NCBI RefSeq assembly: GCF_036013745.1
Contig: NZ_CP107880.1
Coordinates: 8,308,001 to 8,372,000, forward strand
Direction: 5' to 3'
Source of the DNA: Streptomyces sp. NBC_00483
Lineage (GTDB): Bacteria > Actinomycetota > Actinomycetes > Streptomycetales > Streptomycetaceae
Length of the DNA: 64,000 nucleotides
Under the pieces are notes generated by a model. It worked only from the letters and a program-made list of their open reading frames with translations. It did not search any database and was not told the DNA's origin. Below, in pieces: positions 23,474 through 44,711 of the stretch (positions within the stretch are counted from its first letter, which is position 1; every line of letters starts with the position of its first letter). The translations under genes were made by a program, and so were the position numbers.

Positions 23474-23506
23474 TGGACAATATCCCGCGATGTGGGATAG
23501 CGTCAA
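23474..23506 (-). promoter_or_regulatory. IclR palindromic promoter/operator I
   Basis: Minus-strand -35 TTGACG (23501-23506), 18-bp spacer and -10 TATTGT (23477-23482). The spacer carries the half-sites TATCCCAC and GCGGGATA. The expected start of transcription falls at the GTG start codon of the IclR gene, about 6-7 nt past the -10. Near-copies lie at 29425, 33910 and 44679. Confidence 0.8.
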
Positions 23507-23578
23507 AGTTTCGGTCCGGGCCCGCACCGTACAGGGTGCCGGTTCAGGCCCGGGGCGTTCTCGTCATGGACCGCCACG

Positions 23579-25069
23579 TCACACCCGCGGGACCGCCAGG
23601 TACTTGTATTCGAGGAACTCCTCGATGCCTACACGGCCGCCCTCGCGGCCGAGCCCCGAGGCCTTGATGCCGCCGAAGGGTGCAGCGGGGTTGGACACGA
23701 TGCCGGTGTTCAGGCCGACCATGCCGACCTCCAGGGCCTCGCTCACCCTGAAGCCGCGGTCCACGTCCTGCGTGAACAGGTAGCCGGCCAGGCCCCACGG
23801 GGTGTCATTGGCCATGCGGATGACCTCCTCTTCCGTGTCGAACGGAATGACGGGAGCCACCGGGCCGAAGATCTCCGTGGTCAGGAGGTCCGACTGCACC
23901 GAAACGTCCGAAAGGACGGTGGGGGAGTAGAAGTAGCCCGCACGGTCCGGCCGGTTGCCGCCGCAGACGACCTTCGCGCCCTTGTCGACGGCGTCGTCGA
24001 CGAGTTCCTGCACCTTCCGCAGGGCCTTCTCCTCCACGAGGGGCCCGACTTCGGTGCCCGGCTCCAGGCCGTCGCTCACTGCCAGCGAGTCCAGTCGGGC
24101 TGCGAGGCGGCGGGCGAACTCCTCGGCGACGGGCCGCTGGGCGAAGATCCGGTTTGCGGCGGTGCAGGCCTCGCCCATGTTGCGCATCTTGGCTGCGAAC
24201 GCCCCTTCGACGGCGCGGTCGAGGTCTGCGTCCTCGAAGACGATGAGGGGTGCGTTGCCGCCGAGTTCCATCGACGAGCGCATGACGTGCTGGGACGCCT
24301 GCTCGAGGAGGCGTACTCCAACCTCGGTGGATCCGGTGAAGCTGATCTTGCGGGCGATGCCGCTCGACATCCACGGGGAGACCACCGAGGACGCCTTGGT
24401 CGTACACACGATGTTGAGGACACCTGCGGGCAGTCCGGCCTCGATCAGGATGTCCGCGAGCGCCAGGGACGACAGCGGGGTGAGTGCGGCGGGCTTGAAC
24501 ACGATCGTGCAGCCCGCCGCGATGGCCGGCCCGATCTTGCGGGTGCCCATGGCGAGCGGAAAGTTCCACGGCGTCACGAGCACACAGGGGCCGACGGGTT
24601 CGCGCGAGACGAGGATGCGGTTCTTTCCGTCGCCAGTCGTCGTTGCGTCGCCGCCGATGCGGACGGCTTCCTCGGAGAACCAGCGGAAGAACTCGGCGGC
24701 GTACGCGACTTCGCCCTTGGCCTCGGCGAGCGGCTTGCCCATCTCCGTCGTCATGATGAGGGCGAGCTGGTCCTGTCGCGCCATCAGGAGGTCGTATGCG
24801 CGGCGCAGGATCTCACCGCGCTCACGGGGGGCCGTCCTGGCCCAGTCGTTCTGTACCCGGCCCGCGGTTTCGATCGCACGCAGGGCGTCATCGGGACCGC
24901 CATCGGCCACGGTCGCGATGACTTCCTCGGTGGCCGGGTTGACGACGTCGAAGCGGGCGCCGGACGCGGCGTCGCCCCACTGGCCGTCGATGAAGACGCC
25001 GGTGTTGACCTTGGCGATTGCCTCACGTGCCTGCTCGGAGCTGCCGGGGGCGCTGACGTTGCTGGGCAT
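23579..25069 (-). CDS. NAD(P)-dependent succinate-semialdehyde dehydrogenase-like aldehyde dehydrogenase
   Basis: 496 residues, ATG at 25069. Complete ALDH: LVTPWNFPLAM, FKPAALTPLSS, FTGSTEVG, catalytic Glu in MELGGNAP and catalytic Cys in MGEACTAANR, ending LGREGGRVGIEEFLEYKYL. The GEACTAANR context and overall pattern match the GabD/succinate-semialdehyde dehydrogenase branch, so succinate semialdehyde or a similar short semialdehyde is the likely substrate. It is the last gene of the minus-strand run from 29301, after the racemase-like gene (160-bp gap). Confidence 0.87.
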   Translation of the reverse strand: MPSNVSAPGSSEQAREAIAKVNTGVFIDGQWGDAASGARFDVVNPATEEVIATVADGGPDDALRAIETAGRVQNDWARTAPRERGEILRRAYDLLMARQDQLALIMTTEMGKPLAEAKGEVAYAAEFFRWFSEEAVRIGGDATTTGDGKNRILVSREPVGPCVLVTPWNFPLAMGTRKIGPAIAAGCTIVFKPAALTPLSSLALADILIEAGLPAGVLNIVCTTKASSVVSPWMSSGIARKISFTGSTEVGVRLLEQASQHVMRSSMELGGNAPLIVFEDADLDRAVEGAFAAKMRNMGEACTAANRIFAQRPVAEEFARRLAARLDSLAVSDGLEPGTEVGPLVEEKALRKVQELVDDAVDKGAKVVCGGNRPDRAGYFYSPTVLSDVSVQSDLLTTEIFGPVAPVIPFDTEEEVIRMANDTPWGLAGYLFTQDVDRGFRVSEALEVGMVGLNTGIVSNPAAPFGGIKASGLGREGGRVGIEEFLEYKYLAVPRV

Positions 25070-25229
25070 GACAGTCCTTCAGTTCCCTTGGTGTGTCGGT
25101 CTCTGGACGGTGGAAGCCGGGGCGCTGGCCGTGGTCGTGCTCGGGCGGCCGTTGTCCCGGACGGACAAGCGGGAGCCGATACGCCGCAGCACAGGGCCAT
25201 GTGAGCCCTGTGCTGCGGTACGGACAGGT

Positions 25230-25913
25230 TCAGGCCGTCTGCTTCTCCAGCACACGCACCGCGTCCTCTGCCCCACTGCGCGGGCTGCAGAGCACCGGCT
25301 TGCCGACTGCCTCGGCGATCACGGGGGCCAGCCGCGCCATGGACGCCTGGGCCAGCACGATCGCGTCGACCTCCGCGGCGAGCTTTCGGGCCCCGTCGAG
25401 CACCATCGCGTCGTGGCGGTCGCGGTCACCGGACATGAGTACGGAGAAGGCTCCCTCGGAAAGAGCCTCCTTCACGGTGATGTCGCGACCGGCCGCCTGG
25501 GCCTTCTCCTTGACGAGGGCGCAGGTCGGCGGCAGCGTCGTGGGGACCGTCGCCAGGACGCCGATGGTGTCCGCGGTCTCGACCGCCGACGCGGTCATCG
25601 CGTCGTCGATCTTGACGATCGGGACGGAGACCAGGCGTCGGGCCACGTCGATGGCCGGGCCGAGGGAGGAGCAGGCGGAGAAGATGACATCGGCTCCCGC
25701 GTTCTCCGCGGCCTGCGCCAGGTGCACCATGCGCTGGGTGCTGGCGGGCGAGACCTCACCGTCGTGCATGACGGTCGCGAGCACGTCGCTGTCGACGAAG
25801 TGCATGACCTTGGCATTCGGTGCGAGTTCGGCGAGGTAGTCGTTGATGACCGGCTCGACGTTGACGAACACGAGGCTCGTGTGCAGGACGGCGATCTTGG
25901 GGGTGGTGGACAT
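25230..25913 (-). CDS. Asp/Glu/hydantoin racemase superfamily protein (single catalytic Cys)
   Basis: 227 residues, ATG at 25913. The pseudo-symmetric Asp/Glu racemase fold is clear. Cys81 in FSACSSLGPA is the first catalytic Cys. The second position reads VLAQASMARLAP, without Cys. Two-Cys members are racemases or maleate isomerases; one-Cys members include arylmalonate decarboxylase, so an isomerase/decarboxylase or lyase role is possible. Lies 95 bp after the aldolase gene in the same direction, in the sugar-acid part of the island. Confidence 0.75.
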   Translation of the reverse strand: MSTTPKIAVLHTSLVFVNVEPVINDYLAELAPNAKVMHFVDSDVLATVMHDGEVSPASTQRMVHLAQAAENAGADVIFSACSSLGPAIDVARRLVSVPIVKIDDAMTASAVETADTIGVLATVPTTLPPTCALVKEKAQAAGRDITVKEALSEGAFSVLMSGDRDRHDAMVLDGARKLAAEVDAIVLAQASMARLAPVIAEAVGKPVLCSPRSGAEDAVRVLEKQTA

Positions 25914-26008: not shown

Positions 26009-26857
26009 TCAACGGCGCGGGCTCAGACGGCCGATGACCTCCAGGGCGGCGTCCCGGACCGCATCGCGGCCCGCCGCCCACACGGACACGACGTCGGAAC
26101 CGGGCAGCGCCGACGGGAGGGTCGTGTGGACGGCCTCCAGGTAGGCGCGGCGCAGTTCGGCGTTGACGTTGACCTTGGCGACGCCGCGGGCGAGGGCGCC
26201 CTGTAGCTCCTCGACGGGCAGACCGCTGGCGCCGTGCAGGACGAGCGGGACCGGTACGGCCTCGTGGAGGGCGGCGAGCCGCTCCAGGTCCAGGTGGACG
26301 CGGTCCTTGGTGAAGCCGTGGACGTTGCCGACGGCGACGGCGAGTGCGTCCACGCCCGTCGCGGCCACGAATTCGGCCGCCTGTCGCGGATCGGTCATCG
26401 TCGCGGACTGCGCGACGGCGTCGGTGGAGACGTCCTCGTCGCCCGGCAGGGCTCCGAGTTCGGCCTCCACCCAGGCTCCGTGGTCGCGAGCCCGCCGGGC
26501 CGCTTCCTTCGTCAATGCGATGTTCTCAGTGAACGGCAGGTGGGAACCGTCGACCATGACCGAGGTGTAGCCCGCCTCCAGGCAGGCGGTGATCTCGTCC
26601 AGGTCCCGGCTGTGATCGAGGTGCACACCGAGGTGGGCGTCGGAGCGGCCGGCCGCGTCCAGCGCCAGCCGCATCAGGGCGTCGCGCCCCGCATGCTTGA
26701 AGGGGCTGGAACCCGCCTGGATCAGGACCGGCCGGTCCGCGGTCTCGGCGGCGGCCGTGATGCCCTGGACCGTCTCCAGGTTGTAGGCGACGAACCCGGG
26801 CAGGGCGTGACCGGCGGCCGCGGCCTCCTTCAGGGCATCGGTTCCGTGCAGCAGCAT
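26009..26857 (-). CDS. class II (fructose-bisphosphate/ketose-bisphosphate type) aldolase
   Basis: 282 residues. The ATG overlaps the kinase stop by one base (TGATG). Zinc-dependent aldolase features: GVHLDHS (metal His and catalytic Asp), VMVDGSHLPFTEN, EAELGALPGDED, AVGNVHGF (His ligand), LHGASGLP (His ligand) and KVNVNAELR for phosphate binding. It would cleave a phosphorylated ketose or acid, probably the product of the coupled four-carbon-acid kinase, giving a C3 phosphate. Tagatose-bisphosphate (GatY/KbaY) aldolase is the nearest named relative. Confidence 0.85.
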   Translation of the reverse strand: MLLHGTDALKEAAAAGHALPGFVAYNLETVQGITAAAETADRPVLIQAGSSPFKHAGRDALMRLALDAAGRSDAHLGVHLDHSRDLDEITACLEAGYTSVMVDGSHLPFTENIALTKEAARRARDHGAWVEAELGALPGDEDVSTDAVAQSATMTDPRQAAEFVAATGVDALAVAVGNVHGFTKDRVHLDLERLAALHEAVPVPLVLHGASGLPVEELQGALARGVAKVNVNAELRRAYLEAVHTTLPSALPGSDVVSVWAAGRDAVRDAALEVIGRLSPRR

Positions 26858-28305
26858 CAGGTGCTCCTCAGCAGGTCGAGGGCGTCGGCGAGGGCGTCGG
26901 TGCCCCCGACGTTGCCGGCGAAGACGATGTAGGGGATGCCGGCGGCGGGGCCGTCCACCGGTTCCCAGAGCGAGACGATGCCGGGCAGCAGGGTGCCCCG
27001 GGCCCAGGCGCGGCGGATCTCCAGGCCCTGGGTGGCGGTGTCGCTGGAGGTGATCCCGCCCTTCGCGATGACGAAGGCGGGCCGCCGGGCGGCGTTGACC
27101 TGGCGCACGGCCTCCACGAGTGCGGCGGAGACCCGGCGGGAGATCGACAGACTGTCCTCCGCGTCGGCACCGGTCACCAGCGTGCGGGAGGTGCTGATCA
27201 CGGCGTCGGCCGAATCCAGCGCGCCGGCGGCCGCGGCCGCGACCTCGGCGATGTGGGAGTCCCGGCGTTCCTCGTCGAGCAGGAGGGCCACGTCCAGCTC
27301 GTACTCGGCGATTCCGCCGCGCTCGCGCAGCCGGTCCAGCTGCTGTGTGGTGAGCGTGACATGGGACCCGACGACGATGAGACCGTGCGGCGCGTCCCCG
27401 TGCAGCGGGTGCAGCTGCGCCGGGGTGAGCGGTGCCCGAGCCGCCTGTCCCGAGCGGGCCCTGACGAAGGATGGGCCGACCCGGTACACCAGTCTTGTGC
27501 CGCTCTCCTCCGCCTGGACGAGGGCCAGGGCGAGCACCCGAAGGTCGTCGTCGCACACCGCGTCGACCACGGCCGGGCGTCCGTCGCGCAGCGAGGACAG
27601 CAGCCGCGCCGTGTGCTCCGGTCCTCCACGGCGCAGGTCGTCGAGGGTGACGCGCAGGACCTGGTCCGCGGGCACGCGTCCGCCGGTCTTCTCCTCGACC
27701 CACTCCGGCAGCTTCGAGCTGCGGTAGCCGAAGGTGGCGTCGCGGGCGAACTCGCTCTCGCCTACGGGGAGCAGCCCGTCGGCCGTCCGCATCCAGTGGC
27801 CGGAGTCGACCGTCAGTCGTCCCGCCTCGATGTAGGCGGGAACCAGTACCACTCCATCCGGAGTACCGGCGCCCAGATGTGTCAGCGTCTCGGCGAGGAC
27901 ATCGGTCTCCAGCGGGAAGTGGCCGCGCAGTGTCGAGTCACTGCGGCTGGCCAGGACATACGTCGTGCCCTCGGCCGCCGCCGCCACGTGCAGGGCGCGG
28001 ACCACCTCGCGGTTGCGGGCGGCGGCGTCCTCGGGGGAGAGGCTGCGGGTGTTGGTGAGGACGAAGAAGGCGGCGCTGTCCTGGCGCAACGCCCAGCGCA
28101 GGTCGTCCACCGTCCAGGACGTCAGGACGGGTACATCGGCGACCGTCTGGGTGCCGGTCGGATCGTCGTCGAGGACGATGAGTCGCGAGCCGCCGGAGAT
28201 GCGGGCGGCCACTTCCGCGGCGCTCACCTCGCGGACCGGCGGGAGCGCGTCAAGCACGTCGGCCTCGGGAACGGGCCGCGTCTGGGCATGGAGGGGTGGG
28301 GGCAT
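26857..28305 (-). CDS. four-carbon acid sugar kinase family (DUF1537, OtnK/DtnK-like)
   Basis: 482 residues. N-terminal four-carbon-acid-sugar-binding domain with LIVLDDDPTGTQT and SRSDSTLRGHFPLE; C-terminal nucleotide-binding domain with FVIAKGGITSSDTATQGL and the glycine-rich FAGNVGGTDALADALD. Known members phosphorylate threonate, erythronate or 3-oxo-tetronate. It is translationally coupled to the aldolase, so phosphorylation followed by aldol cleavage is the likely pathway step. Substrate specificity cannot be read here. Confidence 0.85.
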   Translation of the reverse strand: MPPPLHAQTRPVPEADVLDALPPVREVSAAEVAARISGGSRLIVLDDDPTGTQTVADVPVLTSWTVDDLRWALRQDSAAFFVLTNTRSLSPEDAAARNREVVRALHVAAAAEGTTYVLASRSDSTLRGHFPLETDVLAETLTHLGAGTPDGVVLVPAYIEAGRLTVDSGHWMRTADGLLPVGESEFARDATFGYRSSKLPEWVEEKTGGRVPADQVLRVTLDDLRRGGPEHTARLLSSLRDGRPAVVDAVCDDDLRVLALALVQAEESGTRLVYRVGPSFVRARSGQAARAPLTPAQLHPLHGDAPHGLIVVGSHVTLTTQQLDRLRERGGIAEYELDVALLLDEERRDSHIAEVAAAAAGALDSADAVISTSRTLVTGADAEDSLSISRRVSAALVEAVRQVNAARRPAFVIAKGGITSSDTATQGLEIRRAWARGTLLPGIVSLWEPVDGPAAGIPYIVFAGNVGGTDALADALDLLRST

Positions 28306-28461: not shown

Positions 28462-29301
28462 TCAGAACGTGTGCAGCACCATGCGCAGGAACTCGGCCGG
28501 CTCCGTGGCCTCGACCGCCACCGGGCCTTCGTTGGCCAGGAATTCGTACCCGGTCTCCGGCCCGTACTCGCTGCCCCCGGCGGTCACCCTGCCCTTGGTC
28601 TGGAACAGGATCTCGATGGAGTCGAACCGGCCCGCCCGGTAGACCGCGCCGGCGTCGAGGCGTACGAACCCGATGCGCAGGTCGCGTTCCGTGAAGCGGC
28701 CCAGCCACTTCTCCTCGACGCCCGCGTCGTCGCTCTTCTGCCAGTCGTAGGCCTCCGGGTCCATCGCGATGACATCGGTGTAGCGCGGAGCCGCGAACCG
28801 GAGCGCGCCGCCCGTGGCGTGCTCGAAGATCGCTTCGGAGCCGTCCTTGCTCTGGGCCACGCCGTTGTCGTCGGTGTAGTGGTACAGGCCCTTCTTGAAC
28901 TCGCCGAGCTTGTTCAGTTCGGCGTTCACCGCTTCGCGCCGCGCGACGCTCAGGTAGCCCTGGCCGCTCGCGCCGCCGCACTGCAGCACCATGGTGCGCA
29001 GGCCTTCGGCGCGCTCCTGAGGGCCGTAGTGGATGCTCTCAGGGAAGTATCCGACCCAGCCTTCCTTGAGCACCTCGGTCTCGGTGTAGGGCAGGTCGCC
29101 CTGGATGACGTAGCGGATCTGGTCGAAGTTGTGCCGGTGGCGCGGGGTCCGCCAGCCGCCGCCGCCCGTGAGGCCCATGTTGAGGTCGAAGTTGTTCGGC
29201 GAGTCGTCCTCGCCGAACAGCAGGTGCTTCTGGTCGAGCTTCCCCTCACGCATGGTTCCGACCTGCTCGGTGTCGGTGTCGGATGCCTTGCCTACACGCA
29301 T
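28462..29301 (-). CDS. cupin-domain protein
   Basis: 279 residues. ATG at 29301 is chosen because AAGGAG lies 7-12 nt upstream; a start at 29325 is possible but without such a site. The protein has two cupin-like segments: WRTPRHRHNFDQIRYVIQGD (metal-type HxH) and a distal copy near VYRAGRFDSIEILFQTKGRV. The first looks metal-binding. A dioxygenase or isomerase role is plausible. It is the first gene of the minus-strand run leading to the kinase, aldolase, racemase-like and ALDH genes, and is divergent from an SDR with the IclR palindrome between. Confidence 0.7.
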   Translation of the reverse strand: MRVGKASDTDTEQVGTMREGKLDQKHLLFGEDDSPNNFDLNMGLTGGGGWRTPRHRHNFDQIRYVIQGDLPYTETEVLKEGWVGYFPESIHYGPQERAEGLRTMVLQCGGASGQGYLSVARREAVNAELNKLGEFKKGLYHYTDDNGVAQSKDGSEAIFEHATGGALRFAAPRYTDVIAMDPEAYDWQKSDDAGVEEKWLGRFTERDLRIGFVRLDAGAVYRAGRFDSIEILFQTKGRVTAGGSEYGPETGYEFLANEGPVAVEATEPAEFLRMVLHTF

Positions 29302-29424
29302 CTGAAGCTCCTTCGAAGAATCCATCACTGAGTCAATGTCGCCCGGCGGCGAGAGCCGATGAGTCGGGGCGCTGGGCCGGCCCGGTGTCGTCCTGCGGTG
29401 GAGCAGGGAGGGTCGCCGTTTCCA

Positions 29425-29457
29425 TTGACGATATCCCACATGGCGGGATACTGTCCA
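29425..29457 (+). promoter_or_regulatory. IclR palindromic promoter/operator II (divergent)
   Basis: Plus-strand -35 TTGACG (29425-29430), 18-bp spacer, -10 TACTGT (29449-29454). Read on the minus strand the same block gives TGGACA, 18 bp, TATCGT, so it can serve both the plus-strand SDR-ALDH-aldolase run and the minus-strand cupin run. Half-sites are TATCCCAC and GCGGGATA. Confidence 0.8.
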
Positions 29458-29599
29458 TGGGTCATCAGGGGTTACTACCCCGGTGCTCACGGGTGAGGCT
29501 CACGCGAATACGCGGCGCCACCCGCTTATCAGCCCTGCATTCGCAGCCACTTTCCCCGCCGCATTCCGATCGCGAAGCGCGACGCCAGGAGGACTGACC

Positions 29600-30424
29600 A
29601 TGACGACAACACCCTTGACCCACGCCCCACATGACTCCGGAGTGCCGGCGTCGGCGCGGGACTTCAGCGTGGCGGAGCGGGTGGTGATCGTGACCGGCGC
29701 CGCCCAGGGCATCGGCCGGGAGCTGGCGCGCCAGTTCGCCGCGGCCGGAGCCTTCGCCGTGGTGGCCGACCTCGACCTCGGCAAGGCGGAGACCGTCGTC
29801 AAGGAGATTCACGAGGCCGGCGGGACCGGCCTGGCCGTCCAGGTCGACGTGGCTGACGAGTCATCGGTGACAGCCATGGTCGACACCGTCATGGACCGGT
29901 GGGGCCGGATCGACGTACTGATCAACAACGCGTCGGTCTTCGCGACCATCGAGAAGGGCCCGTTCGACGAGATCCCCCTCGCGCAGTGGGAGCAGGTGCT
30001 GAAGGTCAACGTCACCGGGACCTACTTGTGCGTGCGGGCGGTGGCTGCACACATGCGTACGGCCGGCTTCGGCCGCATCGTCAACGTCTCGTCCGACGCG
30101 GTGACCCGAGGCACCGTCAACTACCTGCACTACGTCACGTCCAAGTCGGCGATCATCGGCATGACCAACTCGCTGGCGCGTGAACTGGGCAGCCACGGGG
30201 TCACCGTCAACTGCGTGCGCCCGGGCTCCGTCGCCACGGAAGTCGAGCGCACCGTGAACCCCACCGTCGAGGTCCGCCAACGCGCGGCGTCACTGCAGTG
30301 CATCCCGCGCGGGATGGTGCCCACCGACCTCGTCGGCGTCATGTTCTTCCTGGCCACACCGGCGTCCGCGTTCATCACCGGACAGACGATCGCCTGCGAC
30401 GGCGGCTACACCCACAGCAGCTGA
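29600..30424 (+). CDS. short-chain dehydrogenase/reductase
   Basis: 274 residues, ATG at 29600 after AGGAGGA. An N-terminal extension of about 25 residues precedes the cofactor motif TGAAQGIG; then VLINNAS, NVSSDAV and the catalytic YVTSK; VRPGSVATEV completes the fold. Probably NAD(H)-dependent, oxidising a secondary alcohol or diol. First gene of a plus-strand run (SDR, ALDH, HpcH/HpaI aldolase, ketopantoate-reductase-like) behind palindrome II. Confidence 0.87.
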   Translation: MTTTPLTHAPHDSGVPASARDFSVAERVVIVTGAAQGIGRELARQFAAAGAFAVVADLDLGKAETVVKEIHEAGGTGLAVQVDVADESSVTAMVDTVMDRWGRIDVLINNASVFATIEKGPFDEIPLAQWEQVLKVNVTGTYLCVRAVAAHMRTAGFGRIVNVSSDAVTRGTVNYLHYVTSKSAIIGMTNSLARELGSHGVTVNCVRPGSVATEVERTVNPTVEVRQRAASLQCIPRGMVPTDLVGVMFFLATPASAFITGQTIACDGGYTHSS

Positions 30425-30502: not shown

Positions 30503-31954
30503 ATGAGGCAGTACCCGCACCTCTACATCGACGGTCAGTGGACCGAACCGATCGAGCCCCGCGAAGTCGAGCTCATCGATCCGACCCGCGAGGAGGCCTT
30601 CGCCCGAGTGGCTCTGGGCAGCGCCGCGGACGCGGAGCGGGCCGTCGCCGCGGCGCGCCGCGCGTTCGACAGCTTCTCCGCCACGTCGGTGGACGAGCGG
30701 ATCGCACTGATCGACCGCGTCGTCGACGCCTACGAGTCGCGCATCGACGAGTTCTCCGAGCTGATCGCCCGCGAAGTCGGCATTCCCGTGGCCAATCGAG
30801 CTCAGGTCACCGGCCCGGCCCAGCACATGCGCGTGGCCCGCGACCTCCTGCGCGAGTACCCCTTCGAGTCGCGGATCGGCGGTGCCGTCGTCCGCCGCGA
30901 ACCGATCGGCGTGTGCGCGCTGATCTCACCGTGGAACTGGCCGGTCCAGACCGGCGTCATCAAGCTGATCTACGCGCTGGCCGCCGGATGCACGGTCGTG
31001 GCCAAGCCCAGCATCAACTCCGCAGCCAGCGGCGCGCTTTTGGCCCAGGTCCTGCACGAGGCGGGCGTACCCGCGGGCGTCGTCAACCTGGTCAACGGCA
31101 GGGGCCGCGACGTGGGCGACACCTTCTCCCGTCACCCGGACGTCGACATGGTCTCCTTCACCGGATCCACCGGGGCCGGCCGACAGGTCGGGGCCGCCGC
31201 CGCGGACACGGTGAAGCGCCTCTGCCTCGAACTCGGCGGCAAGTCCGCCAACATCGTGCTGCCCGACGCAGACCTGGAGCAGGCCGCGCGCTGGAACATC
31301 CAGCGCTGCTTCTTCAACGCCGGCCAGTCCTGCCACGCCCCCAGCCGCATGCTGGTGCACGAGAGTCAGATCGAGCAGGTGGTGCCCTTCCTGGTCGACG
31401 AGGCCCGCCGCTTCCGCCTGGGCGATCCGCTGGAGAGTTCGACGACCATGGGTCCGGTCGTCAGCGCCGGTCAGTTCAAGTCGATCAGGGACCACATCCA
31501 GAGTGGCCTCGACGAGGGCGCCCGGCTCGTCACCGGCGGCCTGGAGCGCCCCGACGGCCTCGACCGCGGGTACTTCGTGCAGCCCACGGTGTTCACCGGA
31601 GTCACCCCGGACATGACGATCGCCCGGGAAGAGGTCTTCGGACCCGTCCTGGCCGTCCTGCCCTACGGCACCGAGGCCGAGGCCCTGAGCATCGCCAACG
31701 ACTCGGTCTACGGGCTCGGCGGCTTCGTCTTCGGCGGCGACCGCACGCGCGCCCGCCGCGTGGCGAACGGACTGCGCGCCGGACGCGTCAGCTACAACGG
31801 CGCGGCAACGGACTCGTACACGCCTATGGGCGGCTACAAGCAGTCCGGCATCGGCCGCTCCATGGGCCGCTTCGGGCTCGAGGAGTATCTCGAGGTCAAG
31901 TCCGTGTACGGGTTCGAGGACGAGGCGCAGGAACTGCCGCCGCTCTTCGGCTGA
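30503..31954 (+). CDS. aldehyde dehydrogenase
   Basis: 483 residues. ALDH landmarks: ISPWNWPVQTG, FTGSTGAG, catalytic Glu in CLELGGKSAN, catalytic Cys in NAGQSCHAPSR, and the C-terminal GIGRSMGRFGLEEYLEVKS. Oxidises an aldehyde to acid with NAD(P). It is one of five ALDHs in the island; the FNAGQSC context is shared with aldehyde dehydrogenases of broad specificity, so the substrate cannot be named. 78 bp behind the SDR, which may provide its aldehyde. Confidence 0.88.
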   Translation: MRQYPHLYIDGQWTEPIEPREVELIDPTREEAFARVALGSAADAERAVAAARRAFDSFSATSVDERIALIDRVVDAYESRIDEFSELIAREVGIPVANRAQVTGPAQHMRVARDLLREYPFESRIGGAVVRREPIGVCALISPWNWPVQTGVIKLIYALAAGCTVVAKPSINSAASGALLAQVLHEAGVPAGVVNLVNGRGRDVGDTFSRHPDVDMVSFTGSTGAGRQVGAAAADTVKRLCLELGGKSANIVLPDADLEQAARWNIQRCFFNAGQSCHAPSRMLVHESQIEQVVPFLVDEARRFRLGDPLESSTTMGPVVSAGQFKSIRDHIQSGLDEGARLVTGGLERPDGLDRGYFVQPTVFTGVTPDMTIAREEVFGPVLAVLPYGTEAEALSIANDSVYGLGGFVFGGDRTRARRVANGLRAGRVSYNGAATDSYTPMGGYKQSGIGRSMGRFGLEEYLEVKSVYGFEDEAQELPPLFG

Positions 31955-32025
31955 GACATCCACTGCCACCGCCCGGGCCTCCGCGCCGGCCGAGGCACCC
32001 CCAGTCAGTCAGGAACCTTCCGAAC

Positions 32026-32817
32026 ATGAGCAACGAAGCCAGCCCTCTTCTGCGCAATCCCGCCAAGGAAAAGCTGTTGCGTGGCGAGACGGTGTACTCG
32101 ATGACCGCACGCCTCGTGCGCACCGTCGACATCGCCGCGATCGCCCACTCCGCGGGGTTCGACTCCATCTACATCGACATGGAGCACAGTCCTTTCCCCC
32201 TGGATGCCGCGAGCCAGATCTGCATGGCCTGCAACCACTTGGGTGTCACCCCGCTCGTCCGCGTCCCGGGCCTGGACCCGTCCTTCATCGGCCGGGTCAT
32301 GGACTCCGGGGCCATGGGCATCATCGTGCCCGGGGTGAACTCAGCCGACGAGGTGCGTGCCGCAGTCCGGGCCGTCAAGCACGCACCTCTGGGCGAGCGC
32401 TCCCTCGCGGGTTCCCCGCCCCAACTGCACTTCCGCTCGTACCCCGCCGACCAGACCATCCGCGCGCTCGACGAGACCTCCATGGTGGTGGCCCAGATCG
32501 AGACACGCGCAGGCCTGGACGCGGTGGAGGCGATTGCCGCCGTCGAGGGCGTGGACGTCCTCCTCGTCGGCGCGAACGACCTCAGTCTCGAGCTGGGCAT
32601 CCCGGGGCAGATGGACCACCCCGAGCTGCACAAGGCGTACCTGCGCATCATCGAAGCCTGCCGCGTGTACGGAAAGACCGCTGGCGTCGGCGGCCTCGGC
32701 GGACGCCCGGACCTGATCCGCCAGTACCTGGACCTCGGTGCCGGCTATGTCTCCACCGGCAACGACATCTCCTTCCTCAGCGCTGCCGCGGCCCAAAAGC
32801 GCCGGCAGTTCGACTGA
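32026..32817 (+). CDS. HpcH/HpaI-family class II aldolase
   Basis: 263 residues, ATG at 32026. HpcH/HpaI fold: FDSIYIDMEHSPF (catalytic His region), PLVRVPGLDPSFI (Arg), GIIVPGVNSADEV, VVAQIETRAGLDAVE (metal Glu) and LLVGANDLSLELG (metal Asp). The usual reaction is metal-dependent cleavage of a 4-hydroxy-2-oxoacid to pyruvate plus an aldehyde, which an adjacent ALDH could oxidise. 4-Hydroxy-2-oxoheptanedioate and 2-keto-3-deoxy sugar acids are known substrates of the family. Confidence 0.87.
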   Translation: MSNEASPLLRNPAKEKLLRGETVYSMTARLVRTVDIAAIAHSAGFDSIYIDMEHSPFPLDAASQICMACNHLGVTPLVRVPGLDPSFIGRVMDSGAMGIIVPGVNSADEVRAAVRAVKHAPLGERSLAGSPPQLHFRSYPADQTIRALDETSMVVAQIETRAGLDAVEAIAAVEGVDVLLVGANDLSLELGIPGQMDHPELHKAYLRIIEACRVYGKTAGVGGLGGRPDLIRQYLDLGAGYVSTGNDISFLSAAAAQKRRQFD

Positions 32818-32856: not shown

Positions 32857-33843
32857 ATGAAGATCTGCGTATACGGCGCGGGAGCCGTGGGCGGACACAT
32901 CGCCGGACGACTCGGCGCGGCCGGGGCCGATGTCTCGGTCATCGCCCGTGGCCGACACCTGGCGGCGATCCAACAGGACGGGCTGCGGGTGGAGACCCGC
33001 GACGGCGAACTTGTCTCGCACCCGGTGGCCACCGACCGGCCCGGCGATCTGGAGCCGCAGGACATCGTCATCGTCACCGTCAAGGCGCCCGCCCTTCCGG
33101 CCATCGCCGAGCACGTCGGTGCGCTGCTGAAGAAGGACGGCCTCGCGCTGTTCGTCATGAACGGCGTGCCCTGGTGGTACTTCCACGCACACGGCGGGCC
33201 CCTGGACGGCACCCGCCTTCAGCGCCTCGACCCCGAGCGGGCGCTGTGGGACCACGTCGGCCCCGAGCGGGCCGTGGGCGCTGTGGCCTACACGGCGTGC
33301 AGCGTGCCCGCACCGGGAGTGATCCGGGCCGAGAACGCACGCAACCGCCTGCTCGTCGGACGCCCCGACGGCGGATCCGACTCCAGGCTCGACGCGCTCG
33401 CGTCGCTGCTGACCCCCACCGGCCTGGAAACCTCCGTCACGCCGAAGATCCGCGACGCGATCTGGGCCAAGCTGACCATGAACCTGATCGGAGGCTCGCT
33501 GGCCGTCCTCAGCGCCTCACCCATGAAGGACGTGCTCGACAAGCCCGCCGTCGCGGGCACCGCCAAGGCCATGGCGGCCGAGGCCGCCGCCGTCGCCCGC
33601 GCCCTGGGGTGCGAGCCGGGAGACCCGGAGGAGGGGCTGGCCAAGCTGGCGAAGTCCGGCCACCTCCAGAGCATCGCGCAGGACCTGCTGGCCGGACGGC
33701 CCATGGAGATCGACGCCATGTTCCGGGTCCCCCTCGACCTGGCGGAACGGGCGCAGGTACCGACACCCAACCTCGACCTGGTGATCGACCTGGCCACCCA
33801 GCGTGCCCGCGCCGCAGGCCTGTATCACGACACCAACAGCTGA
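32857..33843 (+). CDS. ketopantoate reductase (PanE/ApbA) family protein
   Basis: 328 residues, ATG at 32857. NADP-binding motif GAGAVGGHIAGRLG at residues 7-20, MNGVPWWYF near the middle, and the C-terminal ApbA domain with catalytic Lys/Glu region (KLTMNLIGGSLAVLSASPM). A position in a catabolic run rather than near pan genes suggests a 2-oxoacid/2-hydroxyacid reductase rather than pantothenate synthesis. It follows the aldolase by 39 bp and ends the plus-strand run. Confidence 0.83.
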   Translation: MKICVYGAGAVGGHIAGRLGAAGADVSVIARGRHLAAIQQDGLRVETRDGELVSHPVATDRPGDLEPQDIVIVTVKAPALPAIAEHVGALLKKDGLALFVMNGVPWWYFHAHGGPLDGTRLQRLDPERALWDHVGPERAVGAVAYTACSVPAPGVIRAENARNRLLVGRPDGGSDSRLDALASLLTPTGLETSVTPKIRDAIWAKLTMNLIGGSLAVLSASPMKDVLDKPAVAGTAKAMAAEAAAVARALGCEPGDPEEGLAKLAKSGHLQSIAQDLLAGRPMEIDAMFRVPLDLAERAQVPTPNLDLVIDLATQRARAAGLYHDTNS

Positions 33844-35687: not shown

Positions 35688-36716
35688 ATGCAAGCAGTTG
35701 TATTCCTGGGCGAGGGCAAGCTCGACCTCCGTGAGGTTCCCGACCCGGTGCCGGGACCGGACGAAGTCGTCCTTCGTATCAAGGCGTCCGGCATGTGCGG
35801 CAGCGACCTCCACCACCTCCACGGCCCGCACCGCACCGGAGTGGAGCTGGTGATCGAGGGCCACGAGCCGTGCGGAGTCGTCGAGTCGGTCGGCGACGCC
35901 GTACGCCCCAGCGAGGCCAAGGTGGGCGACCGGGTCATGGTCCACCACTACGACGGGTGCCGCACCTGTCGCTACTGCCGCTCCGGCTGGACGCAGTACT
36001 GTCCGAACGCCCGCACGGTGTACGGCGGTCTCGACGGTGACGGCGGCCACGCGGACTTCATGAAGGTGCCGGCGCACACGCTCATCCGGCTGCCCGACGA
36101 GCTGTCGTTCAAGACCGGCGCGGCCATCTCGTGCGGCACCGGGACGGCCTTCGGAGCCATCAAGCGGGTCGGCCTGTCAGCAGACGAGACCGTCGCCGTC
36201 TTCGGACAGGGGCCGGTGGGTCTGAGCGTCACCATGCTGGCCAAGGCCTTCGGTGCCCGGGTCATCGCCGTCGACGTCGAGCCCTCGCGCCTGGAGATGG
36301 CGAAGAAGTTCGGCGCCGACCATGTCATCGACGCGACGCAGCAGGACTCCGTGGCCGCTGTCCGCGCCCTGACCCGGGACGGCGCGGGCGCGGACAAGTC
36401 CATCGAGTGCAGCGCCAATTCCGCCGTGCGGCGTCAGTCGGTCCAGGCGCTGCGTCAGTGGGGCACCGCCTGCATGGTGGGTGTCTTCGGCACCATCGAG
36501 CTGGACAGCCAGGAACTCATCCAGCTGCAGAAGACGGTCGTGGGCTCGCTGACCTTCAGCAAGAATCTCCAGGAGGAGTGCGCCCAGTTCGTGGCCGAGC
36601 GAGGCCTGGACGTGGAGTCGCTGTTCACCGACGAGTTCCGCCTCGACGAGGCAGAGCGGGCTTACGAGTTGTTCGACCGACGCGAGATCGGCAAGGGCGT
36701 CTTCGTCTTCGACTGA
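35688..36716 (+). CDS. zinc-dependent alcohol dehydrogenase (paralog 1)
   Basis: 342 residues, ATG at 35688. Catalytic zinc ligand Cys37 in SGMCGSD, His-Glu in EGHEPCG, and a complete structural zinc lobe GCRTCRYCRSGWTQYC (C-x2-C-x2-C-x7-C). Nucleotide motif VFGQGPVGLSVTML. Acts on an alcohol, passing an aldehyde to the ALDH at 36779. A clear paralog of the enzyme at 55559-56599, which has the same zinc lobe spacing. Confidence 0.88.
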   Translation: MQAVVFLGEGKLDLREVPDPVPGPDEVVLRIKASGMCGSDLHHLHGPHRTGVELVIEGHEPCGVVESVGDAVRPSEAKVGDRVMVHHYDGCRTCRYCRSGWTQYCPNARTVYGGLDGDGGHADFMKVPAHTLIRLPDELSFKTGAAISCGTGTAFGAIKRVGLSADETVAVFGQGPVGLSVTMLAKAFGARVIAVDVEPSRLEMAKKFGADHVIDATQQDSVAAVRALTRDGAGADKSIECSANSAVRRQSVQALRQWGTACMVGVFGTIELDSQELIQLQKTVVGSLTFSKNLQEECAQFVAERGLDVESLFTDEFRLDEAERAYELFDRREIGKGVFVFD

Positions 36717-36778: not shown

Positions 36779-38278
36779 GTGACCACATTCCAGCAGAGCG
36801 CCGCCCCGGGCGAGCAGGCCCAGGCCTTCGTGGCCCGCGCCGCGCACCAGCACTTCATCGACGGCGAAAGCGTCCCGGCCGAGTCCGGACAGACACTGAC
36901 CACCATCAACCCCTCGACGGGTGAGGACCTGGCGCGGCTCGCCGCCGGCGGCCAGGCGGACGTCGATCGCGCGGTCCTCGCAGCACGCCGTGCGTTCAAC
37001 GGCCAGTGGAGTACCTGGACTCCCTACGGGCGCCAGGCGCTCCTGACCCGGATCGGCCAGATCCTCGACGAGCGGTTCGAGGAACTGATCCAGATCGAGG
37101 CCCTGGACATGGGCGCCCCGGTCTCCAGGCTGCGGGGCAGCAAGCCGGCCTTGCTGAAGATGGTGTCGTTCTTCGCCGCCCAGGCGGCCAACATCAGCGG
37201 TGAGACGCTGATGAACGGCATCCCCGGCAACGTCACCACGATGACGTTGAAGGCCCCGGTCGGGGTCGTCGGCGGCATCATCCCCTGGAACGGCCCCCTC
37301 AACGGCCAGTTCTGGATCATCGGTGCCGTCCTGGCCAGCGGATGCACCGCAGTGCTGAAGCCCTCCGAGGAAGCCTCTCTGTCGGTGCTGCGGGTGGCGG
37401 AGATCCTGCACGAAGCCGGTGTCCCGGCAGGAGTCATCAACGTCGTCACCGGCCTGGGCAAGGAAGCCGGCCACGCCCTCGCGGCCCACCCGGACGTCGA
37501 CCGCATCGCCTTCACGGGGTCGACCCAGACCGGCCGCAGCATCATCGAGGCGTCCACCGCGAACATCAAGAAGTTGCAACTCGAACTCGGCGGCAAGTCG
37601 GCGGACATCGTGTGTGCGGACGCCGACCTGGACAAGGCGGTACCGGGCGCCGCCATGGGTGTGTTCGCCAACTCCGGCCAGATCTGCTTCGCCGGCACGC
37701 GAGTACTCGTCCAGCGCTCCATCGTCGACGAGTTCACCGAACGACTGCTGGCGTTCACCGACACGCTGCGCATCGGGTCCAGTCTGGACGACACCGCCAC
37801 CCTGGGCCCGCTGGTCTCCCAGGCGCAGCTGGACAAGGTGCTGTCCTACATCGATGTCGGCCGAACGGATGGAGCCCAACTGCTCCGCGGGGGAGAGCGG
37901 TTGGCAGGCGAGCTGAAGAACGGCTACTTCGTGCAGCCGACCATCTTTGGTGATGTCACCAACGACATGCGCATCGCCCGTGAAGAGATCTTCGGCCCCG
38001 TCCTGTCGATCCTGCCGTTCGACGACGTGGACGAGGCCATCGCCATCGCCAACGACAGCGAGTACGGCCTCGGGGGAGCGGTGTGGTCGCAGAGCCTGTC
38101 TACCGCCCTCAGCGTGGTCCGCGGCGTACACACCGGAACGATGTGGGTGAACTGCTACGGCCACATCGACCCACTGGTCGGATTCGGCGGCACCAAGATG
38201 AGCGGCTACGGCTCCAAGGGGAGCGCCGCACACATGGACAACTACCTCTACACCAAGAGTGTCTACATCGAGCTGTAA
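36779..38278 (+). CDS. aldehyde dehydrogenase
   Basis: 499 residues from a GTG at 36779, with GAGAGGTAA upstream. Landmarks: IIPWNGPLNG, KPSEEASLS, FTGSTQTG, catalytic Glu in QLELGGKSAD, catalytic Cys in NSGQICFAGTR, and LPFDDVDEAIAIANDSEYGL. Resembles betaine/phenylacetaldehyde-type ALDHs, but the substrate is not determined. Immediately downstream of the alcohol dehydrogenase and 25 bp before the LysR gene. Confidence 0.88.
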   Translation: MTTFQQSAAPGEQAQAFVARAAHQHFIDGESVPAESGQTLTTINPSTGEDLARLAAGGQADVDRAVLAARRAFNGQWSTWTPYGRQALLTRIGQILDERFEELIQIEALDMGAPVSRLRGSKPALLKMVSFFAAQAANISGETLMNGIPGNVTTMTLKAPVGVVGGIIPWNGPLNGQFWIIGAVLASGCTAVLKPSEEASLSVLRVAEILHEAGVPAGVINVVTGLGKEAGHALAAHPDVDRIAFTGSTQTGRSIIEASTANIKKLQLELGGKSADIVCADADLDKAVPGAAMGVFANSGQICFAGTRVLVQRSIVDEFTERLLAFTDTLRIGSSLDDTATLGPLVSQAQLDKVLSYIDVGRTDGAQLLRGGERLAGELKNGYFVQPTIFGDVTNDMRIAREEIFGPVLSILPFDDVDEAIAIANDSEYGLGGAVWSQSLSTALSVVRGVHTGTMWVNCYGHIDPLVGFGGTKMSGYGSKGSAAHMDNYLYTKSVYIEL

Positions 38279-38303
38279 CGGCTGCCTCGGACAGGAACGG
38301 CTC

Positions 38304-41584: not shown

Positions 41585-41610
41585 GGTGTCTTCCCTTTCT
41601 GGTCGCGCGG

Positions 41611-42138
41611 TCAGCGGATCACGCTGATGTGAACTGCCGAGACCACGACGGGCTCGTCGGTCCGATTCCGCCAGGCGTGCTTGGTGCCGCGCTGAACGAT
41701 GGTGTCTCCCTGCCGCATGGTCGTCTCGCCCGCGTCGAGCAGCACGCACGCCTCCCCGGAGATGACCGTGACGATGTCGATGGTGTCCGTGGTGTGCATG
41801 CCGGGTGCGTCCGTCGGATCCACCGCGTCGGCGGCGCCCGACTCTGCCAGGATGCGCGCGTAGCCCCCTTCGTAGTCCCATTCACTGTCAGGGGCGAAGG
41901 CTGTGATGACGTAGTTGTAGCCGGCGGGCGGCGGCGGGATGACCGCGGCGTCGCCGGGGCCGTTCGTAGCCATCACCGGAGTGGGCACCTGGGTGGCCTG
42001 CCACAGGTGGTTCCGGGTGTAGCCATCCGCGACAAGGCGGTCGGTCGTCGGACCGTCGCTGACGAAGGTCGATCTGCCGTCGTCATCAAGTCCGGTGACG
42101 ATCAGACGCGACTGAAATTCACGGTGCTCTCCAGCCAT
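41611..42138 (-). CDS. cupin-domain protein
   Basis: 175 residues, ATG at 42138. The cupin barrel contains MHTTDTIDIVTVISGEACVL, MRQGDTIVQRGTKHAWRN and VSAVHISV. The architecture (N-terminal RLIVTGLDDDGRSTF beta-hairpin, then cupin) is that of small cupins found with SDR and aromatic catabolic genes. Its metal His positions resemble those of the neighbouring cupin, so the two could be partners or duplicates. Confidence 0.74.
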   Translation of the reverse strand: MAGEHREFQSRLIVTGLDDDGRSTFVSDGPTTDRLVADGYTRNHLWQATQVPTPVMATNGPGDAAVIPPPPAGYNYVITAFAPDSEWDYEGGYARILAESGAADAVDPTDAPGMHTTDTIDIVTVISGEACVLLDAGETTMRQGDTIVQRGTKHAWRNRTDEPVVVSAVHISVIR

Positions 42139-42210: not shown

Positions 42211-42978
42211 TCAGATGCCGACTGTCTGACCACCATCGATGACCATCGCGTGGCCGGTCGCGAACCCGCCGAGGTCGGACGAGAGCCAGAGCACGGCGGA
42301 AGCGATCTCCTCGGGGCTGCCCATCCTGCCGACGGGCTCCTGGCCGATCACTCGGGCGCGGCCCTCGGGGGTGCCGCCGGAAAACCTGTTCATCATGGGC
42401 GTTTCGATGATGCCCGGGCAGATCGCGTTGACCCTGACGCCCTGTGCGGCGTAGTCCAGCGCCGCCGACTTCGTCAGGCCGATCAGCCCGTGCTTGGCGG
42501 CGACGTACGCGGCCTGCCCTCGGATCCCGACCACGCCGGCGCCGGACGACGTGTTGACGATGGAGCCGCCGCCGTTGTCGAGCATGGCGGGGATCTCGTA
42601 CTTCATGCACAAGAACGCGCTGCGCAGGTCGATGTCGAGCAGCTGCGACCACTCTTCCTCCGCGATGTCGACGAGAGGCGCCGGGGGCTGCTCGATCCCG
42701 GCGTTGTTGAACGCGATGTCGAGGCGGCCGAATTCGCGGACCGTCTGCTCGACAGCAGCCCGGATCTCGCTGGAAGACGTGACGTCGCACTTGACGGTGA
42801 GCACCCGGCCGCCGTGCTCGGCGGCGAGTCGGGCGGTCTCTTCGTTGCCGGCCGAGTCGATGTCGGCCACGACCACATCAGCACCCTCGGCGGCGAAGGC
42901 CCTCGCCGTGGCACGGCCGATGCCGCTACCGGCGCCGGTCACGAAGGCGACCTTGCCGGCGAACCTCTGTGCAGTCAT
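42211..42978 (-). CDS. short-chain dehydrogenase/reductase (paralog of 16896-17663)
   Basis: 255 residues, the same length as its paralog and starting with the same MTAQRF. GAGSGIG, NNAG, NTSSGAG and the catalytic YVAAK are present, and the C-terminus GQTVGI also matches. Lies behind the sugar-porter-type MFS gene (49 bp), so it probably acts on the transported compound or a derivative. The near-identity of active-site segments suggests a similar substrate class for both copies. Confidence 0.88.
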   Translation of the reverse strand: MTAQRFAGKVAFVTGAGSGIGRATARAFAAEGADVVVADIDSAGNEETARLAAEHGGRVLTVKCDVTSSSEIRAAVEQTVREFGRLDIAFNNAGIEQPPAPLVDIAEEEWSQLLDIDLRSAFLCMKYEIPAMLDNGGGSIVNTSSGAGVVGIRGQAAYVAAKHGLIGLTKSAALDYAAQGVRVNAICPGIIETPMMNRFSGGTPEGRARVIGQEPVGRMGSPEEIASAVLWLSSDLGGFATGHAMVIDGGQTVGI

Positions 42979-43027
42979 TCTCTCTCTCGCTTTCTGTCAT
43001 GAACCAGGGGTGTGGAAGGTGTCGAGG

Positions 43028-44473
43028 TCAGAGCAGGGGGCGTTCGGTGACCGTGCCGCTGTAGCGGTCGCGCAGTTCACCCTCGAGCTCCTCCAAGGTG
43101 CGTCCCTTGGTCTCCGGGACACAGCGATACGCGAAGAGCGTCGCCAGCATGTTGAGCACCATGAACCCGGAGAACACCGCCACCGAGCCGTACCGCTCGG
43201 CGAGGATCGGGAACAGGAAGGAGATGAGCGAGTTGGCGACCCACAGTCCGCCGAGCGAAGCGCCCATGGCGAACCCGCGGATCGGCAGCGGGAACAGCTC
43301 AGAGAGCACCAGGAAGCCCGTGGTGGCCAGGAAGGTCAGCATGAACGCCGTGACCAGCAGCATGAAAAGCAGGATCAGGTACGAGCGCAGGCTCGAGTCC
43401 GGCAGCAGATAGGTGATGAGGAGCCCCAGATGGGAGGCGGCCACACCGCCGAATCCGAGCAGCATCATCCTGCGGCGCCCCATCACACCGAGAACCCACA
43501 TGCCCACAACCGTGAAGACGATCATCGAGATTCCGACGGTGACGGAGGCGAGCAGCGATGCGGACCGGGTGAGGCCGGAACTCTGCAGCACGGTCGGCGC
43601 GTAGTACATGACCACGTTGATGCCAGTAGTCTGTTGGGCCATCGCCAAGACGATGCCGACCAGGATCAACCGCTTCATCCACGGTTCACGGCGAAGGGCG
43701 GCGAGGACGGAGGCCTTGCCCTTGGCCGCGTCCGCTGTGACGACCGCCGTGATCTGCTCGTACTCGGCCTCGACCCGGTCGGCGAGGTGTGCCCGCTGCA
43801 GCGTGTGGCGCGCCTTCGACCACATCTGCTTGCTCGCGTACCAGCGAGGTGTGTCCGGCAGCGGCGACATGCCGAGGAGAAGTGCGACGGCCGGAATGAG
43901 AGCGACGCCCACCATGTAGCGCCACACGACAGGGTCGTTGATCAGATTGGCGAGTACCGCGTTGGCGACGAATGCCAGGAACAGGCCGATCGTCAGCATG
44001 AGTTGGTTCATCGTGACGATGCGGCCCCGCTGTGAAGCCGGCGCCATCTCGGCGAGATACAGCGGTACGACGACGGAGGCGACACCGACGGCGTAGCCGA
44101 GCGCGATGCGGGCCCCGATCAGGATGGCGACGCTGGGAGCCAACGCGCATGCGATCGTGCTGACGACGAAGATCACGCTGGCGATCACCAGTGACTTCTT
44201 GCGTCCCACCCGGTCGGCGACGGGTCCGCCCAGAAGCGCGCCTGCCGTCGCGCCGGGGAAGAGCAGCGAAGTGACCACCAGCCCCTCGGTGACCGCGGTC
44301 AGCTGAAAGTCCTCGCGGAGATACACGAGTGCGCCCGAGATCACCCCGGTGTCGAACCCGAAGAGAAGGCCGCCCAGGCTGGCGATCGCCGTCAGCCGGA
44401 ACAAGAAGGTCCTCGGGTCCTCACGACCGCTTGGGCGGGGCAGGACGCGCGTGGACGGTGGATTGTCAGACAT
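43028..44473 (-). CDS. MFS sugar-porter family transporter
   Basis: 481 residues, ATG at 44473. Sugar-porter signatures are intact: GGLLFGFDTGVISGAL in TM1, GGPVADRVGRKKSL in loop 2-3, DTPRWYASK in the central loop, AMAQQTTGINVVMYYAPTVL in TM7 and VPETKGRTLEELE at the C-terminus. A sugar, polyol or sugar acid is the likely import substrate, consistent with the sugar-acid kinase in the island. Transcribed from palindrome IV on the minus strand. Confidence 0.88.
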   Translation of the reverse strand: MSDNPPSTRVLPRPSGREDPRTFLFRLTAIASLGGLLFGFDTGVISGALVYLREDFQLTAVTEGLVVTSLLFPGATAGALLGGPVADRVGRKKSLVIASVIFVVSTIACALAPSVAILIGARIALGYAVGVASVVVPLYLAEMAPASQRGRIVTMNQLMLTIGLFLAFVANAVLANLINDPVVWRYMVGVALIPAVALLLGMSPLPDTPRWYASKQMWSKARHTLQRAHLADRVEAEYEQITAVVTADAAKGKASVLAALRREPWMKRLILVGIVLAMAQQTTGINVVMYYAPTVLQSSGLTRSASLLASVTVGISMIVFTVVGMWVLGVMGRRRMMLLGFGGVAASHLGLLITYLLPDSSLRSYLILLFMLLVTAFMLTFLATTGFLVLSELFPLPIRGFAMGASLGGLWVANSLISFLFPILAERYGSVAVFSGFMVLNMLATLFAYRCVPETKGRTLEELEGELRDRYSGTVTERPLL

Positions 44474-44678
44474 GCAGTCTCCCTGGAGGTCGTCCCGTAA
44501 CCGCAGGTGATGGCTGGTGTGTGTGCCGACGGGCGGGCGCCGCAGCGCGTGGTGCCGCAGTCGGCGATACGAGGGGGCGTCGAGCACGTGGTGCCCGAGC
44601 GTCGCTGAAATCCGCACCATCTGGTGTTTCACGCCGGCGGCTCTAGTGTGACGGCGCACACACTTCTCGGATGCGTCC

Positions 44679-44711
44679 TGGACAATATCCTGCAATGTGA
44701 GATTCAGTCAA
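44679..44711 (-). promoter_or_regulatory. IclR palindromic promoter/operator IV (divergent)
   Basis: Minus-strand -35 TTGACT (44706-44711), 18-bp spacer, -10 TATTGT (44682-44687), directed at the sugar-porter gene 206 bp downstream. Near-symmetrical, so it may also drive the plus-strand SnoaL-like gene that starts 71 bp away. Half-sites AATCTCAC and GCAGGATA. The remaining intergenic sequence (44474-44781) holds no gene. Confidence 0.75.

Follow-up and report, generated by a model that had tools for sequence, protein, structure and literature searches.

IclR-family regulators are reportedly found on operators that overlap the -35 and -10 promoter elements, as is said of IclR of Escherichia coli on aceBAK and of PcaR of Pseudomonas putida. 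For CatR of Rhodococcus opacus, a putative PcatR site overlapping the promoter is described in the portion of the source considered here (PMC9582017), and the corresponding portion of a comparative study sorts IclR motifs into GKTYCRYW3-4RYGRAMC (group 1) and TGRAACAN1-2TGTTYCA (PMC8222616). Here we describe a 64,000-nucleotide stretch of Streptomyces sp. NBC_00483 (contig NZ_CP107880.1, positions 8,308,001 to 8,372,000; "the window" hereafter), in which an iclR gene and four copies of a 33-bp palindromic element appear to constitute a conserved and well-predicted regulon of this IclR, in which operator and promoter coincide. Palindromes that overlap promoters have precedents as sites of IclR proteins, and the regulon is ordinary in kind, sharing with the aceBAK, PcaR and CatR systems an operator that overlaps -35 and -10, whereas it differs from them in the pathway, in the outer half-site bases ATC/GAT, and in that operator and promoter coincide at each of four transcription units and do so again in a second bacterial family. 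No description of the regulon, ligand or substrate of this IclR group was found in the literature; the supplements of PMC8222616, with 181 orthologous groups, may include the group.

An earlier note on this DNA had placed the four sites before iclR, between a cupin gene and a short-chain dehydrogenase/reductase (SDR) operon, before a major facilitator superfamily (MFS) operon and between a sugar porter gene and a SnoaL-like gene, each consisting of TTGAC(G/T), 18 bp and TA(T/C)(T/C)GT. The coordinates, strands and hexamer/spacer layout proved exact at all four (Table 1), and the gene neighbourhoods were as described. The half-sites given there, TATCCCRC and GYGGGATA, hold exactly at sites 1 and 2 but not at sites 3 and 4, where the left arm is degenerate (AGTCCCAC, AATCTCAC) and the right arm reads GCTGGATA or GCAGGATA; the core common to the four sites is rTCyCAcAnnGCnGGATA. 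With up to three mismatches, the 33-mer pattern TTGACNNWRTCYCACANNGCNGGATAYYGTCMA matched the 10.24-Mb host genome (one contig) four times, always at a window site, with no match for the reversed control, and a 24-bp core pattern returned the same four places (site 2 on both strands; control 0). A motif common at unrelated promoters genome-wide, the outcome that was held to speak against the regulon, is thus not what this genome contains. The bare 15-mer palindrome, in contrast, had 95 matches at up to two mismatches versus 65 in the control, with zero mismatches at sites 1 and 2 only. Specificity resides in the long 33-mer, and the short palindrome is unspecific.

The product of iclR (257 residues scanned) carries PF09339 (37.6 bits, cut-off 22) and PF01614 (62.7 bits, cut-off 24) and is an IclR-family member, with both domains and close to the expected 250 residues. 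In searches that scored only a few candidates per genome, this IclR was recovered at E 1e-60 from one of 392 genus genomes and one of 394 class genomes, both times the host itself. At E 1e-3 the protein database yielded 577 homologues, of which the 120 listed share 74-93% identity; those named belong to Streptomyces, Amycolatopsis, Saccharopolyspora, Rhodococcus, Arthrobacter, Pseudarthrobacter and Nocardioides. Three further Streptomyces loci include two near-copies (99.98% and 96.9%), the former being Streptomyces sp. NBC_01016, where that identity extends over 20.8 kb. The IclR of S. ochraceiscleroticus is 92% identical; in that species a small contig carries iclR with a diverged site, and a second contig carries the remaining three sites and their operons. 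A second family, reached via genome G053 and probably the Micrococcaceae, judging from the names of the IclR homologues, has IclR relatives in 5 of 395 genomes: orthologues of 74-79% identity in G1020, G1169, G926 and G1065 (the last cut by contig ends), and a homologue of only 43% in G880. The recognition-helix region TSRSTGYRYIK is identical in the window, S. ochraceiscleroticus, G1020 (two copies), G1169, G926 and Sinorhizobium. Two IclR paralogues per genome are located near regulon genes in G1169 (C12, 30-707 and 60760-61509) and in G1020 (C36, 4793-5551, and C29, 56728-57480).

The proposal of the earlier note that one IclR controls at least four transcription units over 21 kb is supported, as a prediction, by the exclusivity of the sites, by their co-occurrence with the regulator and by their attachment to the same gene sets. 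Regarding co-occurrence, S. ochraceiscleroticus has three full-pattern matches genome-wide, with the fourth, diverged site before iclR. A widened pattern matched 9, 4, 5 and 4 times in G1020, G1169, G926 and G1065, respectively, some matches being both strands of one site, with none in the controls; G880, with the 43% homologue, had no match to this pattern genome-wide. One core-like palindrome (L060:1388, score 24.4) does lie near the G880 homologue. In a draw of 365 second-family genomes, which did not contain G1169, 12 had a match, namely three IclR carriers with 5, 9 and 4 and nine further genomes with a single match apiece, of which eight share one sequence type (TTGACACA...), against one control match overall; each of the 362 non-carriers therefore had at most one. 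Among 362 genus genomes, 16 had a match: the host had four at zero mismatches and 15 others had one each at two or three mismatches, with no match in the controls. Two or more matches were confined to IclR carriers in both draws, where carrier status relies on an overlap with the 395- and 392-genome regulator searches that was deduced from the genome numbering. Beyond these groups, proteobacterial IclR homologues are 46-58% identical. A symmetric core matrix, for which shuffles gave 0-2 matches per run above 11, found four matches in Paracoccus (three scoring 22-25), two in Sphingobium (19.6 and 12.5), one in Caballeronia (14.0) and, in Sinorhizobium, none above the threshold of 11, so that related operators are likely in Paracoccus as well as in G880. 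A plasmid tblastn search with IclR gave no place at 60% identity or more.

The LysR gene behind the MFS operon raises the question whether another regulator of the cluster, such as its product, binds the sites. We consider this very improbable, since no LysR relative (E 1e-10) was found in the 12 site-bearing stretches L085-L096, which are parts of four genomes, whereas all four contain a complete or partial IclR orthologue, and the sites precede iclR itself.

In relatives, the sites precede counterparts of the SDR-aldehyde dehydrogenase (ALDH)-ApbA, MFS-alcohol dehydrogenase (ADH)-ALDH, sugar porter-SDR and iclR units, on other contigs or in another order. A core matrix covering positions 9-26 only located sites before SDR-ALDH in stretches L087, L089, L091, L094 and L098, before MFS in L086, L088, L093, L095 and L097, before sugar porter-SDR in L085 and L097, before racemase relatives in L085, L088 and L095 (genomes G1020, G1169 and G1065), and before iclR or at its boundary in L039, L085, L089 and L090. 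The site together with the MFS-ADH-ALDH order of the window recurs in L097, L086, L088 and L095; in L093, MFS has a site and ADH is oppositely oriented. The SDR/cupin boundary carries a site in the window, L098, L089 and L094, and some relatives' sites precede genes without a counterpart in the query gene list. The query proteins did not include the HpcH/HpaI aldolase, at whose place relatives show a gap of about 850 bases. Sites scored 19-31 (L086:19674, turned by hand toward the cupin gene, 17.7 as turned), compared with at most 16.4 in one mononucleotide shuffle of each of the 15 sequences. The resulting set of 33 sites, ten of which had trained the matrix, comprises those with a core score of at least 19, excluding the near-identical L038/L040 and the doubled L097/L098 site and dropping the weaker L088:861, L095:19590 and L091:3357 as well as other-strand readings. 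Two close site pairs were seen, at L087:9957-10021 (32 bp apart) and L085:11449-11570 (89 bp), and one site of each is without promoter hexamers.

The nine site pairs compared have 21-33 of 33 bases alike, and in five of them the site is kept while neither 40-bp flank exceeds 19 bases alike. These are site 3 against S. ochraceiscleroticus (31/33; flanks 18/40 and 12/40), the window SDR site against G1169 (25/33; flanks 9 and 14 of 40), the window MFS and sugar porter sites against G1020 (29/33 with flanks 9/40 and 11/40; 26/33 with flanks 13 and 19 of 40), and the MFS sites of G1020 and G1169 (28/33; flanks 9 and 4 of 40).

Since the outer arms TTGAC and GTCAA form an inverted repeat, symmetry alone could account for them. 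In the 33 sites, however, TTGAC, which is outside the matrix, is present in 26 and the mirror GTCAA in four, and the final T of the -10 (base 30), likewise outside the matrix, is kept in 31 of 33 while bases 28, 29 and 31 vary. Without the four window sites, the values are 22/29 for TTGAC, 3/29 for GTCAA and 27/29 for the last -10 T. Because TTGAC is kept far more often than its mirror arm and the -10 T is kept as well, we take the outer parts to be held as -35 and -10, which bears out the coincidence of operator and promoter suggested in the earlier note. That these are also the best-kept outer parts would suit a mere shared promoter type, or a copied promoter, without any regulator. Yet the palindromic spacer is conserved too, with positions 10, 11, 16 and 22-25 alike in 33/33 sites (which were selected by the same core), and ordinary promoters have no need of it; together with the co-occurrence of the 33-mer with IclR in the 365- and 362-genome draws, this renders an unregulated promoter scarcely credible. 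At site 1, the in-frame GTG at 23470-23468 starts at the seventh base past the -10, and the same spacing is seen in S. ochraceiscleroticus (GTG) and G926 (ATG), so the iclR mRNA is predicted to be leaderless.

Several observations weigh against the regulon proposed here. Promoter hexamers are absent from L085:5642 (before iclR), L085:11538 and L087:9989, and -35 elements are weaker at L085:11449, L086:19674, L095:12466 and L039:310; hence the coincidence with a promoter does not extend to all sites. The TTGAC-TAnnnT reading at L089:13290 faces away from iclR. In four of the nine pairs at least one flank is conserved along with the site, as in the comparisons with S. ochraceiscleroticus for site 2 (34 and 38), site 4 (downstream 32) and site 1 (site 21/33, downstream coding flank 32), and between the SDR sites of G1169 and G1065 (upstream 32). 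The kinase-aldolase-racemase-succinate-semialdehyde dehydrogenase (SSADH) genes had no site of their own in the window in the genome scan with TTGACNNWRTCYCACANNGCNGGATAYYGTCMA. Lastly, the group 1 pattern speaks both ways: the left core half fits YCRY in 30/33 sites, in favour of the regulon, while the right half fits RYGR in only 15/33 and the whole YCRYNNNRYGR fits 12/33, or 4/33 with W3.

Compared with group 1, whose nearest subgroup is WTT-11-AAW in the portion of the study considered here (PMC8222616), the present motif is alike in its two inverted half-sites, its 17-bp site, its place in an autoregulated catabolic regulon and its centre about 20 bases before the iclR start codon. It differs in its outer ATC...GAT, which lies outside the subgroups listed there (TGT, GTT, WTT and NGT), in having C at position 11 and G at position 23 in 33/33 sites versus T and A in WTT-11-AAW, and in a right half that is often RCAG rather than RYGR. 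By its sequence, the motif would be a divergent variant of group 1.

Sites at the promoter of iclR and of adjacent operons are the arrangement of IclR-type local autoregulation. It is very probable that IclR acts as a local repressor through the operator-promoters of four transcription units. An IclR dimer would bind the palindrome rTCyCAcAnnGCnGGATA, filling the 18-bp spacer and overlapping the -10, at four housekeeping-type promoters, namely its own leaderless one and those of the SDR-ALDH-aldolase-reductase, MFS-ADH-ALDH and sugar porter-SDR-cupin operons. Bound IclR would exclude RNA polymerase and would be released by a catabolite that may derive from a four-carbon or related sugar acid; promoter occlusion is the simplest mechanism because operator and promoter coincide. 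We infer binding, repression, operon structure, inducer and substrate from sequence. The same protein might instead be an activator or have a dual role, for example activating the operons with inducer and repressing itself, and it counts in favor of this that the family includes activators, two of them shown in R. opacus in the portion of the source considered here (PMC9582017). Nevertheless, an operator covering the spacer and -10 should let a bound dimer exclude polymerase, and activation would not obviously be needed at -35 and -10 elements that look strong, so that we deem an activating role unlikely. With IclR as the repressor, a sharply defined regulon can be predicted for this orthologue group, and the site shows which genes belong together functionally within a catabolic cluster of patchy distribution.

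Table 1. Predicted regulatory elements and genes of the IclR cluster, in window coordinates.
Feature	Position	Strand	Remarks
Site 1	23474-23506	minus	predicted iclR operator-promoter; -35 TTGACG 23501-23506, -10 TATTGT 23477-23482
Site 2	29425-29457	plus	predicted SDR operon operator-promoter
Site 3	33910-33942	plus	predicted MFS operon operator-promoter
Site 4	44679-44711	minus	predicted sugar porter operon operator-promoter
Crp-like box TGTGTGCGCCGTCAC	44648..44662	minus	downstream of site 4
Conserved noncoding element	34071..34160	plus	MFS leader, ~90 nt
iclR	22694..23470	minus	predicted repressor, HTH_IclR and IclR_C
SSADH-type aldehyde dehydrogenase	23579..25069	minus	
Asp/Glu racemase family	25230..25913	minus	
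Class II aldolase	26009..26842	minus	PF01116; frame coordinates
Four-carbon acid sugar kinase family	26857..28305	minus	SBD_N/NBD_C
Weak cupin-like gene	28462..29490	minus	divergent from site 2; frame coordinates, start codon not fixed
SDR dehydrogenase	29600..30424	plus	first operon gene; ATG 29600 from alignment with relatives
Aldehyde dehydrogenase (SDR operon)	30503..31954	plus	
HpcH/HpaI aldolase	31963..32817	plus	PF03328; frame coordinates, start codon not fixed
ApbA/PanE-type reductase	32857..33843	plus	
MFS transporter	34245..35669	plus	start by alignment with relatives
Zinc alcohol dehydrogenase	35688..36716	plus	
Aldehyde dehydrogenase (MFS operon)	36779..38278	plus	
LysR gene	38259-39176		behind MFS operon
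Cupin (sugar porter operon)	41611..42138	minus	PF07883
SDR dehydrogenase (sugar porter operon)	42211..42978	minus	
Sugar porter (MFS)	43028..44473	minus	PF00083, TIGR00879; start by alignment with relatives

A second layer of control may exist at the transporter promoters. Both strands of 288,693 bases (the L097/L098 overlap counted twice) contain 12 copies of the pattern TGTG(N)7TCAC. Six of these follow a same-strand IclR-site promoter at a distance of 16-17 bases, and all six precede transporters (site 4 of the window, L097:8344, L085:1940, L086:13747, L088:5522 and L095:12137). The box is thus present at 6/9 transporter sites versus 0/24 others at that offset, with one other at offset 33 (Fisher p 8e-5, although orthologous sites are not independent of one another). 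It is absent from three transporter sites, the MFS sites of the window, S. ochraceiscleroticus and G926; a looser GTG(N)8CAC stands at offset 16 of the G926 site, and 202 such are found in the same sequence. Five of the six boxes fit GTG(N)6GNCAC, which is quoted as a Crp consensus in the portion of the source considered here (PMC10033298), and the sixth fits GTG(N)8CAC only. Ten genomes gave nine matches to a 22-base form of the box; six of these are at transporter sites, two of the six in near-copies of the host, and G1065, with a more diverged box, gave no match.

In addition, the MFS leader contains an element of about 90 nt that is alignable in six genomes, in the MFS leaders of L097, L086, L088, L093 and L095 and, more weakly (71%), in the sugar porter leader of G1020 (L085:2040-2125). 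Between the window and the second family it is 79-84% identical over 38-90 nt; a plasmid search gave no match. A structured RNA is not clearly supported, as no Rfam family reached its gathering score in window positions 22000-47000, folding of seven copies gave z-scores of -0.51 to 0.94, and two stems chosen by eye pair in most copies with no double compensatory change. Nor is a coding role supported, since changes are even over codon positions (0.24, 0.27 and 0.24) and the frames break.

Site 2 read on the reverse strand is TGGACA-18-TATCGT and faces the divergent cupin and kinase genes; the cupin-like, kinase, class II aldolase, racemase and SSADH-type genes all run opposite to the SDR operon. 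One 33-mer may hence serve two divergent promoters at site 2. The reverse-strand TAnnnT is present at the four SDR/cupin sites (window, L098, L089 and L094), which are orthologous and perhaps reflect one event. As a general rule, bidirectionality was not supported: TA at positions 8-9 occurs in 6/15 divergent versus 4/12 other sites (Fisher p = 1), the labels being set by hand and six sites at contig ends or unclear left out.

Tentatively, then, uptake could be under double control, with the IclR operator followed by the downstream box about 20 bases into the transcript and the ~90-nt element, the enzyme operons and iclR under IclR only, and site 2 possibly bidirectional. The repressor at the promoter and a Crp-like roadblock or RNA element in the leader would then block polymerase twice. 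The uptake-specific box and leader provide a starting point for asking how soil actinobacteria might gate substrate uptake independently of breakdown.

As to the substrate, the plasmid-borne relatives of the window ALDH among the 15 of 30 records listed are 66-67% identical and come from Rhizobium and Paraburkholderia. The ALDH on pRL11 of R. johnstonii (66.5%) has as annotated neighbours a glucose 1-dehydrogenase, an aldolase/citrate lyase, a tartrate dehydrogenase, an L-threonate dehydrogenase and a 3-oxo-tetronate kinase. This L-threonate/tetronate locus resembles the window in its grouping of an SDR-type dehydrogenase, ALDH, an HpcH/HpaI-type aldolase, tartrate dehydrogenase and a tetronate kinase. 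It differs in having a LysR gene nearby and no IclR in the stretch shown, whereas a class II fructose-bisphosphate-type aldolase and a gene of the racemase family are present in the window, where the genes scanned included no recognisable threonate dehydrogenase. The IclR relatives of Sinorhizobium (58%) and Caballeronia (46%) have SDR (68 and 65%) and ALDH (57 and 57%) relatives nearby. Counting against a closer assignment, the kinase and MFS scores are far under the NCBIfam curated cut-offs: the kinase reaches 43.5 bits with the OtnK-type NF043035 (cut-off 350), and the nearest NCBIfam of the MFS transporter is the aromatic acid/H+ symport family, with a score under the cut-off. All in all, a four-carbon or related sugar acid is a reasonable guess at the substrate, and no more. 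The weak cupin-like gene scored 22.4 bits with PF12973, under the cut-off of 27.

Outside the cluster, the short palindrome is also found near both ends of the host contig (59-73 and 10237395-10237409), a weak hint of related linear-chromosome ends.

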